From: Nocardioides sp. SYSU D00038
Lineage (GTDB): Bacteria; Actinomycetota; Actinomycetes; Propionibacteriales; Nocardioidaceae
DNA: 64,000 nt
Reading direction: 5' to 3'
NCBI RefSeq assembly: GCF_016924665.1
Contig: NZ_JAFFJT010000034.1
Coordinates: 1-64,000 of the forward strand
A model generated the notes under the pieces. The model was given only the letters and a program-made list of their open reading frames with translations. It made no database searches and was not told the DNA's origin. Numbering within the stretch: position 1 is the first letter of the stretch; each line of letters opens with the position of its first letter. The translations under genes were made by a program, and so were the position numbers. Positions 39,236 through 63,863 of the stretch are shown here, piece by piece.

Positions 39236-39370
39236 GCAGGCCGACGCTCGCCGTCAAGGATTCCCTGCGGCGCCTTCGGCGTCCTTGACCGCGAGCCTCG
39301 GTCGGCCTGCTGTACGGCGCACTGCCGGCACTCGCAAGCTCGCGCCGCCAGCATGCGCGGGCGCTCGTCC
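39236..39370. repeat. family 3 palindromic element, copy A
   Basis: Outer arms GCAGGCCGA (39236-39244) and TCGGCCTGC (39302-39310) pair, and inner GTCAAGGA/TCCTTGAC pair. A conserved flank GGCGCACTGCCGGCACTCGC continues to 39370. A related copy on the other strand occupies 63728-63863, with different but still complementary outer arms. Confidence 0.8.
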
Positions 39371-39374
39371 CACC

Positions 39375-39503
39375 GCTGGTCGAGCAGCGAGCGCCAGCGA
39401 GCGTCGTCGAGACCCCGTACGACGACAGCACTCCGGCGGGGACGCAGGGCGTTCGGCCGGCGGGGGTTTCGAGACAGTCGCTAGCGCGACTTCCTCAACC
39501 AAC
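39375..39503. repeat. dispersed palindromic repeat, family 1, full copy
   Basis: Left arm GCTGGTCGAGCAGCGAGCGC, right arm CTAGCGCGACTTCCTCAACC. Right-arm module matches the left-arm module of the copy at 10878 in inverted form. Confidence 0.85.
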
Positions 39504-39504
39504 G

Positions 39505-39590
39505 GCGTTGGTTGAGGTGCGAGGAGCGCCAGCGACGAGCCTCGAAACCCGGCGAGACGAACGCCCTCCCACAACCACCGGACCACGCCC
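39505..39590. repeat. dispersed palindromic repeat, family 1, left half
   Basis: Begins GCGTTGGTTGAGGTGCGAGG, ends near CGAACGCCCTCCCACAACCA; the right half is missing. Confidence 0.8.
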
Positions 39591-39679
39591 AGAAAAAAAC
39601 CGAGAAAGTTCCGGATCCCCTTGTGGACAACGCCGAAAACAGGGGCCAGACTGTCGGTGGCCGGTGCTTGGATGAAGGT

Positions 39680-40852
39680 ATGGCAGCCAGCCACGCCGAA
39701 CCCTTCGACACCGCCGACGCGGTGCTCGACCGGCTGCGCCGCAACCGCACCGAGATCGCCCGGCTCGAGGCCGACAACCTCGCCTGGGCGTGCGCCTGGG
39801 GCGACCTCCACCCCGGCGAAGCCCTCCTCGACACCGTCCCCGGCAGCGAGCAACCCGCCCGGCTCGGCGGCCACGGCTGCCCCGAGGTCGCGGAGTTCTG
39901 CGTCGCCGAGCTCGGCGTCGCCCTCGGCATCTCAACACCCGCCGCACGCAGCTACTTGGCCGAGGCGCTCGAGCTGCGGCACCGGCTCCCTCGGTTGTGG
40001 CACCGGGTGCAGGCCGGGCACACCGTCGCCTGGAAGGCCCGCCTCGTCGCCCGCCAGACCATGACCCTGCCCAAGGCCGGCGCCGCCTACGTCGACCACC
40101 GACTCGAGTCGAAGGCCACCCGGCTCGGGCCCAGGCAGATCGAGGTGCTGGTCAACGAGGCCATGCTGCGCTTCGACCCCGCACAAGCCGAAGCCGACCG
40201 CGTCAAGGCGGCCGAGCAGCGGCACGTCACCATCACCCACGGCGCCAACGGCATCGCCTACGTCGACGCGATCGTCGACACCGCCGTCGCCATCGACCTC
40301 GAAGCAGCGCTCGCCGCAGCAGCCGCGAAGATCGACACCGACCAGCCCCTCGACGTACGACGCTCCATCGCGCTCGGCCACCTCGCCCAGAGCGACGCCG
40401 GACGCGAGATCGTGATCCATGTCCACGACCAGCAGGTCGGACACCTCGACGACACTGGTCAGCCGCTGCTGGTCACCCAGGTCGAGCAGTGGTGCCGAGA
40501 AGCCGGCACGACGGTGACCGTCAAGCCCGTCATCGACCTCAACCAGCACCTACAGACCGACAGCTACCACCCCACCGAGCTACTGCAACGCCAGACCCAG
40601 CTGAAGATCCAGCACTGCGCAGCACCCTGGTGCACCAGACCAGCCAGACGCTGCGACACCGACCACACCCTGCCGTACGAGCAGGGCGGCACCACCTGCT
40701 CGGGCAACCTCGTCCCGCTCTGCCGCTGGCACCACCGGATGAAGACCCACACCCGCTGGACCTACCACCGCATCGGCCCGACGACCTTCCTCTGGAAGAC
40801 ACCCCACAACGGCTGGGTCGTCGTCGACCACACCGGCACCTGGGAACCCTGA
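39680..40852 (+). CDS. HNH endonuclease domain protein with DUF222 region
   Basis: A 390-residue protein. A long helical DUF222 region (about 20-310) is followed by an HNH nuclease motif: CAAPWCTRPARRCDTDHTLP near 313-332 and NLVPLCRWHH near 344-353. It probably nicks or cuts DNA. Such genes are abundant and multi-copy in Nocardioidaceae and other actinobacteria, suggesting mobility or a self-spreading role, but no flanking repeat or target site is visible. The ATG at 39680 is close after GAAGG. The upstream 60 bp are unusually A-rich. Confidence 0.87.
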   Translation: MAASHAEPFDTADAVLDRLRRNRTEIARLEADNLAWACAWGDLHPGEALLDTVPGSEQPARLGGHGCPEVAEFCVAELGVALGISTPAARSYLAEALELRHRLPRLWHRVQAGHTVAWKARLVARQTMTLPKAGAAYVDHRLESKATRLGPRQIEVLVNEAMLRFDPAQAEADRVKAAEQRHVTITHGANGIAYVDAIVDTAVAIDLEAALAAAAAKIDTDQPLDVRRSIALGHLAQSDAGREIVIHVHDQQVGHLDDTGQPLLVTQVEQWCREAGTTVTVKPVIDLNQHLQTDSYHPTELLQRQTQLKIQHCAAPWCTRPARRCDTDHTLPYEQGGTTCSGNLVPLCRWHHRMKTHTRWTYHRIGPTTFLWKTPHNGWVVVDHTGTWEP

Positions 40853-40930
40853 CCACCCCGCCCCACACCCCGCCGACCCAGCACCACGCGAGGGCAGCGG
40901 GGGCGGCGGCGTGCCACTAGACTGCCGAGC

Positions 40931-62244: not shown

Positions 62245-62979
62245 ATGAGCAACCCACCTGGCTGGTATCCGGACAACACCGACCCGACCCGCTTGCGGTA
62301 CTGGGACGGCAACGCTTGGACGGAGCACACGGCTCCGTCCGGTCCGTCGCCCGCTGGTCCGGTCGGGGCGACCCCCACGCCGTCGACCCCGGGCAAGCAA
62401 GGCAATTGGTTCATGCGCCACAAGATCATGACGGCCGTTCTTGCCGTCGTCCTGATCGCGGTCATCGCTGGCGCAGTAGGGGGTGGCGGTTCGGACGAGG
62501 ACGCTAGCAACACGGCTAGTGATGACTCCTCCACAACGACCGAGTCCAGCCCAGAGCCGAAGGCTGAGCCGACCCAGGAAGCCACCAAGGAGCCGGAGCC
62601 GGAGCCGGAGCCGGAGCCGGAGCCCGAGCCGGAACCCGAGCCGGAGCCGGAGCCCAAGGTCATCAAGGTCGCTGCAGGGAAGATCCTTCAGGAGTTCGAA
62701 GCCAACGAGGCTGCGGCCGATCTGAAATACGGCGATCACCAGCTTCTCGAGGTCACGGGCTTCGTCAGCAAAGTCGACACCGAAATTTTCCACGAGGACC
62801 GGTACATCATTCGAGTCGCCGGACCGGACTACGAGTACGCCTTCGCGACCATCAACTGCGACGGCCAATCAGCCAAAGACGTGGCCAAAATCAAGGTTGG
62901 GCAAAAGATCACAGTCGGCGGTGACTTCCAGGACGGTGGCGACCTCGGGATCGAACTCGGCGGCTGTCACGTCGTCTAG
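62245..62979 (+). CDS. DUF2510 membrane protein with Glu-Pro repeat and OB-like domain
   Basis: A 244-residue protein. A DUF2510 module (PGWYPDNTDPTRLRYWDGNAW, about 5-25) is followed by a Pro-rich linker, a membrane helix near 62-80 (ILIAVIAGAV region), an acidic linker, a (Glu-Pro) repeat of about 24 residues (EPEPEPEPEPEP, near 116-140) and an outside domain at about 142-244 with KILQEFEANEAAADLKYGD that resembles the tRNA_anti-like OB fold. Similar proteins occur in actinobacteria and phages, and the OB part may bind an oligonucleotide or peptidoglycan. ATG 62245; weak GGGGAG upstream. GC of the gene is lower than the surroundings. Confidence 0.72.
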   Translation: MSNPPGWYPDNTDPTRLRYWDGNAWTEHTAPSGPSPAGPVGATPTPSTPGKQGNWFMRHKIMTAVLAVVLIAVIAGAVGGGGSDEDASNTASDDSSTTTESSPEPKAEPTQEATKEPEPEPEPEPEPEPEPEPEPEPKVIKVAAGKILQEFEANEAAADLKYGDHQLLEVTGFVSKVDTEIFHEDRYIIRVAGPDYEYAFATINCDGQSAKDVAKIKVGQKITVGGDFQDGGDLGIELGGCHVV

Positions 62980-63277
62980 CCTGGCGCGTCGTCGGGTCCG
63001 CTGGTGGTAGCCAATGTTGCTGGCTTGGAGCACGACGTGTGTTCTCGGCAGTCACGACGGTGATCGCGACTCGTTTGCCCAAGCGCTGACCGCGTTGCGC
63101 GTCGTCGCCGGGCTCGACGTGAACATCTGACGGGGGCGATGTCGTCCACTGAGGCGTCGTGGCCGGTACGGGTCCGGTAGAACACCATGGGTTCGACGAC
63201 TTGCGGCTTCGTCGCCCCGGTCCGGTGACCGACGAACTTGGGGCGAGCAACCACCCTCGGCCAAAGCGGCCGGCCCA
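62980..63277. other. intergenic stretch with no clear gene
   Basis: About 300 bp. Minus-strand frames here look fragmented (for example VEPMVFYRTRTGHDASVDD in one frame and GQRLGKRVAITVVTAENTR in another), suggesting a decayed gene, but I cannot name it. Confidence 0.4.
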
Positions 63278-63427
63278 TCGCCGACCCAGCGCTCGTTGAC
63301 GTCGAGGTGCGCCGACCCGGCGTCAATTGACGCCGGCTCGGCGAAACCTGGGCTGCCCGCGGTGGTTGCGGGAGGCGTTCGTCTCACCGGGTTTCGAGAC
63401 ACGACTTCGTCGTTCCTCAACCAGCGC
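63278..63427. repeat. 150-bp duplicated segment, copy 1 (with palindrome and family 1 half)
   Basis: Copy 1 of a segment repeated exactly 240 bp later. It contains a palindrome at 63311-63342 with a GGCGTCAATTGACGCC core and a family 1 right half (63361-63427). Confidence 0.85.
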
Positions 63428-63502
63428 GCGGTGGTTGAGGAAGTCGCGCTAGCGACTGTCTCGAAACCCCCCGCCGTCCGAACGCCCTCCCGTAACCATG
63501 GG
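63428..63502. repeat. dispersed palindromic repeat, family 1, left half
   Basis: CGGTGGTTGAGGAAGTCGCG with the GTCGCGCTAGCGAC module, then CTCGAAACCCCCC and CGAACGCCCTCCC. Confidence 0.8.
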
Positions 63503-63517
63503 ATGAGCGTTGGGGTA

Positions 63518-63668
63518 TCGCCGACCCGGCGCTTGTCGACGCCGTGGTGCGCCGAGCCGTCGTTAATTGACGACGGCTCGGCGAGACCTGGGTCGCCCGC
63601 GGTGGTTGCGGGAGGACGGTCGTCTCACCGGGTTTCGAGACACGACTTCGTCGTTCCTCAACCAGCGC
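63518..63668. repeat. 150-bp duplicated segment, copy 2
   Basis: Second copy of 63278-63427. The palindrome at 63551-63582 has changed base pairs but still folds. Confidence 0.85.
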
Positions 63669-63727
63669 GACGGAGGCGTTCGTCTCGCCGGGTACGAGTG
63701 AAGGACTTCGTCCTTCCTCGACCAACG
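63669..63727. repeat. dispersed palindromic repeat, family 1, right half
   Basis: CGGAGGCGTTCGTCTCGCCG, then GAAGGACTTCGTCCTTCCTC, the same module as in 17884-18022. Confidence 0.75.
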
Positions 63728-63863
63728 AGGGCACAAGCCCGCGTAGTGCTGGCGGCGCGAGCTTGCGAGTGCCGGCAGTGCGCCGTCACACCTGGTCGCG
63801 AGAGGCTCGGGGTCAGGGGCGCGAAGCGCCGAAGGGAACCCTTGACGCCGAGACCCGACCAGG
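63728..63863. repeat. family 3 palindromic element, copy B (opposite orientation)
   Basis: Outer arms CCTGGTCG (63791-63798) and CGACCAGG (63856-63863) pair, and the flank GGCGGCGCGAGCTTGCGAGT is the complement of the flank in copy A (39236-39370). Confidence 0.8.

Follow-up and report, generated by a model that had tools for sequence, protein, structure and literature searches.

What keeps the arms of a repeated palindrome complementary while their sequence changes? This question is raised by a stretch of 64,000 nucleotides from Nocardioides sp. SYSU D00038 (contig NZ_JAFFJT010000034.1, positions 1 to 64,000; hereafter the window). There, an original prediction made from the sequence alone had described two copies of a palindromic element with differing but complementary outer arms, and had taken this as a hallmark of selection on structure. 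We propose, with a probability of roughly two in three, that the element is a mobile DNA palindrome resembling repetitive extragenic palindromes (REPs) and bacterial interspersed mosaic elements (BIMEs), that it lacks the REP-associated tyrosine transposase (RAYT), and that it was captured in this genome by a cassette carrying a DUF222-HNH gene.

A three-stem element in at least 34 copies

The two copies lie where they had been placed, on opposite strands of the window (Table 1). Their shared flank is an inverted pair of 40 nt with 100% complementarity (39314-39353 / 63747-63786), and the outer arms are GCAGGCCGA/TCGGCCTGC in one copy and CCTGGTCG/CGACCAGG in the other, as described, with the single mismatch within the inner stem of copy 2 found as well. 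A covariance model extends the element beyond its initial limits, to a unit of 143 nt once a closing stem is counted. Three stems are arranged round a junction. P1 closes the element, GCCCGCGC pairing with GCGCGGGC in copy 1; P2-P3 make up a long hairpin, and P4 a short one. P2 corresponds to the outer arms noticed previously, and P3 is built around GTCAAGG paired with CCTTGAC, plus a small inner stem. As folded single-stranded DNA, copy 1 has an energy of -53 kcal/mol (z -4.47), matched by 0 of 200 shuffles, and copy 2 one of -41.1 kcal/mol (z -2.63), matched by 2 of 200.

Searching the own genome gave 51 matches from the 40 scored of 125 candidates, some of which hit a single palindrome in both reading directions. 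Once these were merged, at least 34 copies, whole or partial, remain at 26 sites, an extra P4-side fragment at locus L022 falling outside this count, and the element is therefore not a product of chance. The copies are of two arm types, A and B, between which whole arms differ. By eye, L017:3461 joins a type-A left arm to a type-B right arm, L018:3464 and L024 have an A-like inner stem within B outer arms, and L030 has the reverse, a B-like inner stem within A outer arms. Direct tandems of two or three copies, ~250-490 bp apart, occur at L015, L016, L017, L018 and L020. A ~60-bp tandem repeat (L030, 2720-2990) adjoins the divergent orphan copy at that locus. Both window copies adjoin repeats of a second family (family 1), and a family-1 core is found within 400 bp of 32 of the 34 copies.

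Pairing is kept between lineages

We investigated covariation in 23 sequences of 138-169 nt, three from the own genome and 20 from 12 genomes; 25 elements had been extracted, and the alignment omits two partial ones, G042b and G057b. Paired cells make up 93.1% of 987, compared with 80.9% in shuffles. Both sides have changed in 22 of 44 pairs (14.9 in shuffles) and in 119 cells (38.9 in shuffles, and at most 19 when the structure is slid), and the covariation score is 0.325 (0.112 in shuffles). Not one of 500 shuffles reaches any of these four values. The structure was derived from the same 23 sequences, which favours it over its slid versions; RNAalifold alone gives nearly the same P1-P3 stems, with both sides changed in 20 of 40 pairs. 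The sequence of P2 varies across many lineages, with 96.4% of its cells complementary; P4 is less well kept (75.9%). The distant arms of P1 covary too, one of their pairs being C-G in 10, G-C in 9 and U-A in 2 of the 23 sequences. Paired substitutions thus exceed those in shuffles, and the claim that pairing is kept while the sequence changes is supported.

Constraint probably at the level of DNA

RNA helices tolerate G-U pairs. We therefore compared stems P1-P3 with a control consisting of one RNA, the RNase P RNA (rnpB) of 21 genomes of the genus, with its RNAalifold structure and with related sequences counted as independent. G-U pairs occupy 6 of 813 cells in the element and 169 of 2275 in the control, about ten times fewer, and their share per sequence averages 0.8% and 7.6%, respectively. 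Changes on both sides outnumber those on one side by 111 to 5 in the element and by 189 to 82 in the control (5:111 versus 82:189, Fisher p 1.6e-9). Since the element hardly has any G-U pairs, constraint or arm copying would most simply act at the level of DNA.

Covariation is confined to comparisons between lineages. Among 22 type-A copies of the own genome, in an alignment that omits the fused L015:3002 and the deleted L031 copies, 17 of 874 cells are unpaired and none has changed on both sides; some of these unpaired cells belong to the recombinant L017:3461 and to L021, where P1 is replaced by other DNA. Single copies therefore decay, which is expected if selection falls only on copies that still move. 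The original claim is thus supported in part: pairing is kept between lineages, but selection on individual copies within the genome is not visible.

Alternatively, complementarity might arise mainly by copying of one arm onto the other, through quasipalindrome template switching or recombination, with no selection on pairing. The scarcity of one-sided changes across species is in line with this, as are the replacement of whole arms between types A and B and the existence of recombinant hairpins. However, the unpaired and uncompensated cells of the own copies show that arm copying is not fast, and the arms that covary include those of P1, which lie far apart. We hold arm copying as the main source of complementarity to be unlikely.

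The palindrome heads a DUF222-HNH cassette

What travels with the element? The own genome has 28 DUF222 hits, corresponding to 26 genes, and at 23 of the 26 element sites a DUF222-HNH (13E12-type) gene lies downstream on the same strand. The stop codon is 1.5-2.1 kb from the last hairpin in 22 of these 23 cassettes, and the truncated frame of L023 ends at 1.1 kb. A C-terminal remnant of 51 codons (90% identity) persists at L032, and no DUF222 gene was found at L030 and beside window copy 2. Three of the 26 genes (C33, C28 and C26:93307) are without the element, none being present in L093, L099 and L107. In an all-against-all comparison of 26 loci the repeats end abruptly: a palindromic left part is common to nearly all, then comes a gene, which belongs to one class at 15 loci and to another at 8, and unique DNA begins soon after the stop codon in most cassettes, with family-1 repeats following several class-1 copies. 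The repeated unit is thus a cassette of ~2 kb, of which the element and family 1 form the 5' module.

Translations of both gene classes have HNH-like C-termini, and one protein per class matches PHROG HNH families; the C-terminus looks broken or altered in three genes (L010, L011 and L023). One protein of each class had no family in NCBIfam and PADLOC, a sequence search of the PDB returned just a weak HNH match (E 0.21), and no relative of one class-1 protein was found in viral contigs.

Beside copy 2 (63737-63879), a DUF222 gene or clear remnant was looked for and not found. A candidate decayed HNH gene there (inverted pair I20, 61962-62009) was rejected as chance. Searches of L033 for a decayed HNH gene gave nothing credible at the expected place, and class-2 matches at 3268-3209, 2963-2889 and 2719-2675 were discarded because the start of the query had been read from family-1 sequence.

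The cassette of copy 1 has the RNase P RNA gene (40936-41344, plus strand) directly on its 3' side. An rnpB survey found a match in 57 of 58 genomes, and 30 loci were fetched, some cut by contig ends. In two of the 30 a DUF222 gene stands beside rnpB. The own genome has it upstream on the same strand; L129 (G029) has a DUF222 gene, 33% identical, on the upstream side too, but on the opposite strand. Because a same-strand cassette upstream of rnpB occurs in the own genome alone among these loci, this cassette looks inserted. Left neighbours of rnpB differ between species and left no readable junction for an empty site, 9 of 21 loci (those with rnpB on the minus strand) having been viewed wrong-way.

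Each HNH gene of the own cassettes is preceded by a putative promoter motif, CTGTCGGTG, which resembles the RecA-NDp/PafBC promoter of the DNA-damage response. The pattern [TC]TGTC[AG]GTG precedes the start in 5 of 5 cassettes of G285, 5 of 5 of G097, 0 of 5 of G085 and 7 of 27 other relatives, and five G304 cassettes carry GTGTCGGTG in its place. Use of the RecA-NDp promoter by PafBC in the DNA-damage response is described in PMC6789036 and PMC8223512.

The palindromes lie upstream of this putative promoter and would therefore be outside the leader of a transcript starting there. This bears on the possibility that the element is a structured RNA, such as a riboregulator, attenuator or small RNA, selected for its fold. 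Strong covariation would fit such an RNA, as would folding of both window copies better than nearly all shuffles and a strand shared with the gene in all 23 linked own cassettes. Against it stand the promoter position, the ten-fold deficit of G-U pairs relative to rnpB of the same genus, and the many relatives without a common gene beside the element. Rfam also gave no credible match, since in the window rnpB alone passes and mir-3150 is far below its gathering score. The RNA reading implied by the original prediction is thus unsupported, and we regard it as very unlikely.

Hairpins and genes are exchanged separately

Hairpin type is independent of gene class. The hairpin nearest the gene is of type A or B in 11 and 4 cassettes of class 1, and in 5 and 3 of class 2. 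Hairpin identity and protein identity show a correlation of -0.04 over 190 locus pairs from 20 of the 23 cassettes, the hairpin half of the comparison omitting the truncated or deleted copies L022, L023 and L031. In the 52 pairs that share a hairpin type but differ in gene class, mean identity is 95.2% for hairpins and 23.2% for proteins. Hairpin modules have therefore been exchanged or homogenised apart from the genes.

Distribution and linkage in relatives

We further investigated the element in related genomes with the covariance model built from the 23 sequences, scoring at most 15 (genus) or 10 (order) candidates per genome under stricter filters. It was found in at least 21 of 196 genomes of the genus and, in an order-wide sample, in at least 8 of 293, all in 1 of 37 genera, the own genome being included in both counts. 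The family is scattered through one actinobacterial genus, probably Nocardioides. Searches of plasmids, phages and viral contigs gave no match to the element or its core. At least ten inverted doublets, all plus then minus with spacers of ~70-260 nt, occur in G078, G097, G285 and G273; the own genome has direct tandems instead. By eye, the two halves of the G078 and G097 doublets carry different arms, and the G273 doublet has long inverted arms.

Linkage to DUF222 genes is mixed. Among 58 loci from hairpin searches, which include two own loci and many weak or partial hairpin matches, nine have a DUF222 frame within 1.5 kb: L038 and L060 (G009), L065 (G285), L072 and L088 (G251, on the 3' side), L073 (G304), L075 (G010), L051 (a weak hairpin match) and L083 (own). 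Forty further element sites, some already seen, include 32 with ~1.7 kb of downstream sequence; of these, four have a DUF222 frame (3 of 10 in G285, same strand; 1 of 1 in G261, opposite strand), and none was found within that distance in G265 (0/10), G354 (0/6), G047 (0/3) and G341 (0/2). In G352 the element is followed by a same-strand gene that clusters with the G285 protein by BLAST and in which Pfam names just the HNH part. A screen of neighbouring genes at 42 element loci (25 largest clusters) returned mostly frames through the element itself or orthologous loci, together with the DUF222-type gene common to G285 and G352 and a three-genome cluster (L057, L214, L215), two members of which have no Pfam match.

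Viewed from the genes, the DUF222 cassettes of G285, G097 and G085 (five each) have no match to the element and a short common 5' region. Four of five G304 cassettes share ~600 bp with family-1 repeats and a remote hairpin relative, and weak, remote relatives of 35-45 bits precede DUF222 in G304, G010 and G262. Among DUF222 loci, a GTCAAGG..CCTTGAC stem occurs at 24 of 28 in the own genome and 8 of 30 in relatives, and it occurs at 3 of 30 rnpB loci; one mismatch was allowed, so that some matches are chance. In G078, the element has at least 15 copies, and there is one DUF222 gene. The only named relative of the gene that was found comes from N. gansuensis (36% identity) and is the ground for naming the genus; a family-1 repeat (94.6% over 37 bases) adjoins it. 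This mixed linkage shows that the palindrome is not necessary to the DUF222 cassette, nor the cassette to the palindrome. The earlier suggestion of a compound element with family 1 holds in the own genome, where both form the upstream part of the cassette; in relatives, a family-1 core lies near only 10 of 42 element loci, compared with 5 of 54 control segments.

That the DUF222-HNH protein is the element's dedicated mobiliser, an HNH counterpart of RAYT, is highly improbable: same-strand upstream linkage in the own genome, G009 (two loci), G285 and G352 (one locus), and the remote hairpin relatives before DUF222, speak for it, but linkage is absent in G265, G354 and G047, G078 has many copies to a single gene, and 15 cassettes of G285, G097 and G085 do without the element.

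Other arrangements were seen in relatives. A TerD-family gene lies near the element at L206 (G009), L224 (G057) and L205 (G097), confirmed by Pfam in two and similar by BLAST in the third. At L190 (G285), by eye, a DUF222 gene has a long inverted copy of its upstream region past the stop, as if inverted repeats flank the gene. In G341 the contigs of L271, L273 and L276 end 3-15 bases past the element, as if a collapsed repeat followed, possibly a multicopy cassette.

Relation to known repeats and proposed mechanism

As in REPs, BIMEs and REPINs (paired REP sequences), the element is a dispersed palindrome whose arms are complementary yet variable between families, and selection for complementary mutations has already been suggested for REP families (PMC2817692, as far as consulted). 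Inverted doublets, also of unlike halves, recall REPINs and REP heterodimers in the portions consulted of PMC3116915 and PMC3733652. GT(A/G)G stands at the hairpin foot in 12 of 23 sequences (10 GTAG, 2 GTGG), its last two letters inside the stem. Unlike REP/RAYT systems, the element is actinobacterial and here part of an HNH-gene cassette. CGTC-type REPs are likewise palindromic, often dimeric and without a known transposase, but they have a different tag and stems of 8-9 bp, and a DUF222 link is absent from the portion of PMC3733652 consulted.

REP13E12 of Mycobacterium tuberculosis offers a likeness that rests on genes and exchange: DUF222 genes are multicopy there, and gene conversion is reported at these loci in the part consulted of PMC13061034, which the exchange of hairpin modules described here resembles. 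The L032 locus, which looks like an internally deleted cassette, and the long-armed G273 doublet recall miniature inverted-repeat transposable elements (MITEs) or deletion derivatives; unlike for MITEs, a parent transposon with matching ends was not found. A search for a RAYT/IS200-type mobiliser (PF01797) found none in 14 genomes. Open-access literature contains no description of the element that we could find, subscription papers lying outside the search; it yielded nothing joining PafBC with 13E12, or REP sequences with RAYT and Actinobacteria, and among the titles listed on Nocardioides with a palindromic repeat, none names such an element.

Several observations weigh against a REP-like mobile palindrome. 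Further pair types in the alignment number 39 against 34.9 in shuffles, a value reached by 26 of 500, and the aligned sequences are related, so that p-values overstate. Own type-A copies lack compensation. Neither an exact empty site nor a target duplication was found, and at the examined loci of several element-bearing genomes of the genus, neither family 1 nor DUF222 adjoins the element. With three stems the element is longer than REPs, which measure ~20-60 bp (PMC3116915, in part), and its scored copies, which the searches cap, are in the tens, not hundreds, compared with a usual REP abundance of >100 per genome (PMC2817692, in part). The Y1 (RAYT) transposase, PF01797, is present in 0 of 14 genomes by a search that was positive in 5 of 14 named control genomes, and we therefore do not claim membership of the RAYT-REP group.

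Nevertheless, we favour a mobile DNA palindrome. In our proposal, constraint would act on DNA, which a mobility enzyme would recognise as a cruciform or as a hairpin in a single strand. Together with family-1 repeats, the element would have been captured into the 5' part of the cassette, with which most own copies would then have travelled; it would thereby have become the front end of the cassette, in the manner of short mobile repeats in other systems. Recombination or gene conversion at shared repeats may spread cassettes and hairpin modules and allow their exchange, and we may guess that breaks made by the putatively damage-induced HNH protein perhaps start the exchange. A stronger version, in which an HNH nuclease induced by DNA damage takes the place of the Y1 transposase in a REP-like system and the hairpins serve as both target and homology arm when genes are copied from site to site, seems quite unlikely.

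Features of the window

Coordinates of the features discussed here are collected in Table 1. Two stretches beside the family-1 repeats near copy 2 (63277-63375 and 63517-63615) are copies, 88% alike, of another palindromic repeat centred on TCAATTGA/TTAATTGA; similar pieces come after the element in L021 and L031. A 72-bp repeat, partly inverted-complementary, has four window copies in tandem pairs at 21510-21653 and 22726-22870.

Table 1. Features around the two element copies in the window
Feature	Position	Strand	Support or remark
Left family-1 half-hairpin and ~60-nt leader, preceding most own-genome copies	39124..39219	+	
Element copy 1, arm type A	39220..39362	+	covariance model 136.4 bits
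Copy 1, P1	39223-39230/39355-39362	+	
Copy 1, P2	39235-39244/39302-39311	+	
Copy 1, P3	39247-39260/39282-39295	+	
Copy 1, P4	39327-39346	+	
Family-1 units between element and gene: inverted pair, then one half	39374..39570	+	limits by eye
CTGTCGGTG, putative RecA-NDp/PafBC-like promoter motif, starting 29 nt before the ATG	39651..39659	+	23/23 own cassettes
DUF222-HNH gene, class 2, 390 aa	39680..40852	+	Pfam PF02720 2.4e-13; PHROG HNH 6.8e-05
Right end of cassette, terminator-like hairpin (by eye); cassettes cease to share sequence near this point	40853..40905	+	
Family-1 repeats, and another palindromic repeat in two copies, on one side of copy 2	63277..63727	.	families D1, D10
Element copy 2, arm type B, family-1 repeats on flanks	63737..63879	-	covariance model 111.2 bits
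Family-1 unit, other side of copy 2	63909..63975	-	

Implications

The comparison of wobble pairs offers a simple means to separate constraint on a palindrome at the DNA level from selection on RNA. How REP-like palindromes are moved without RAYT in an actinobacterial genus becomes a question, and the recurrent link between element and DUF222-HNH gene offers two defined partners for experiments. No defined function is said to be known for the mycobacterial relatives, REP13E12 (PMC13061034). If an HNH nuclease does move the palindrome, this would give a function to 13E12/DUF222 genes and to the REP13E12 recombination hot spots of mycobacteria. The system described here may also serve as a model for such hot spots.

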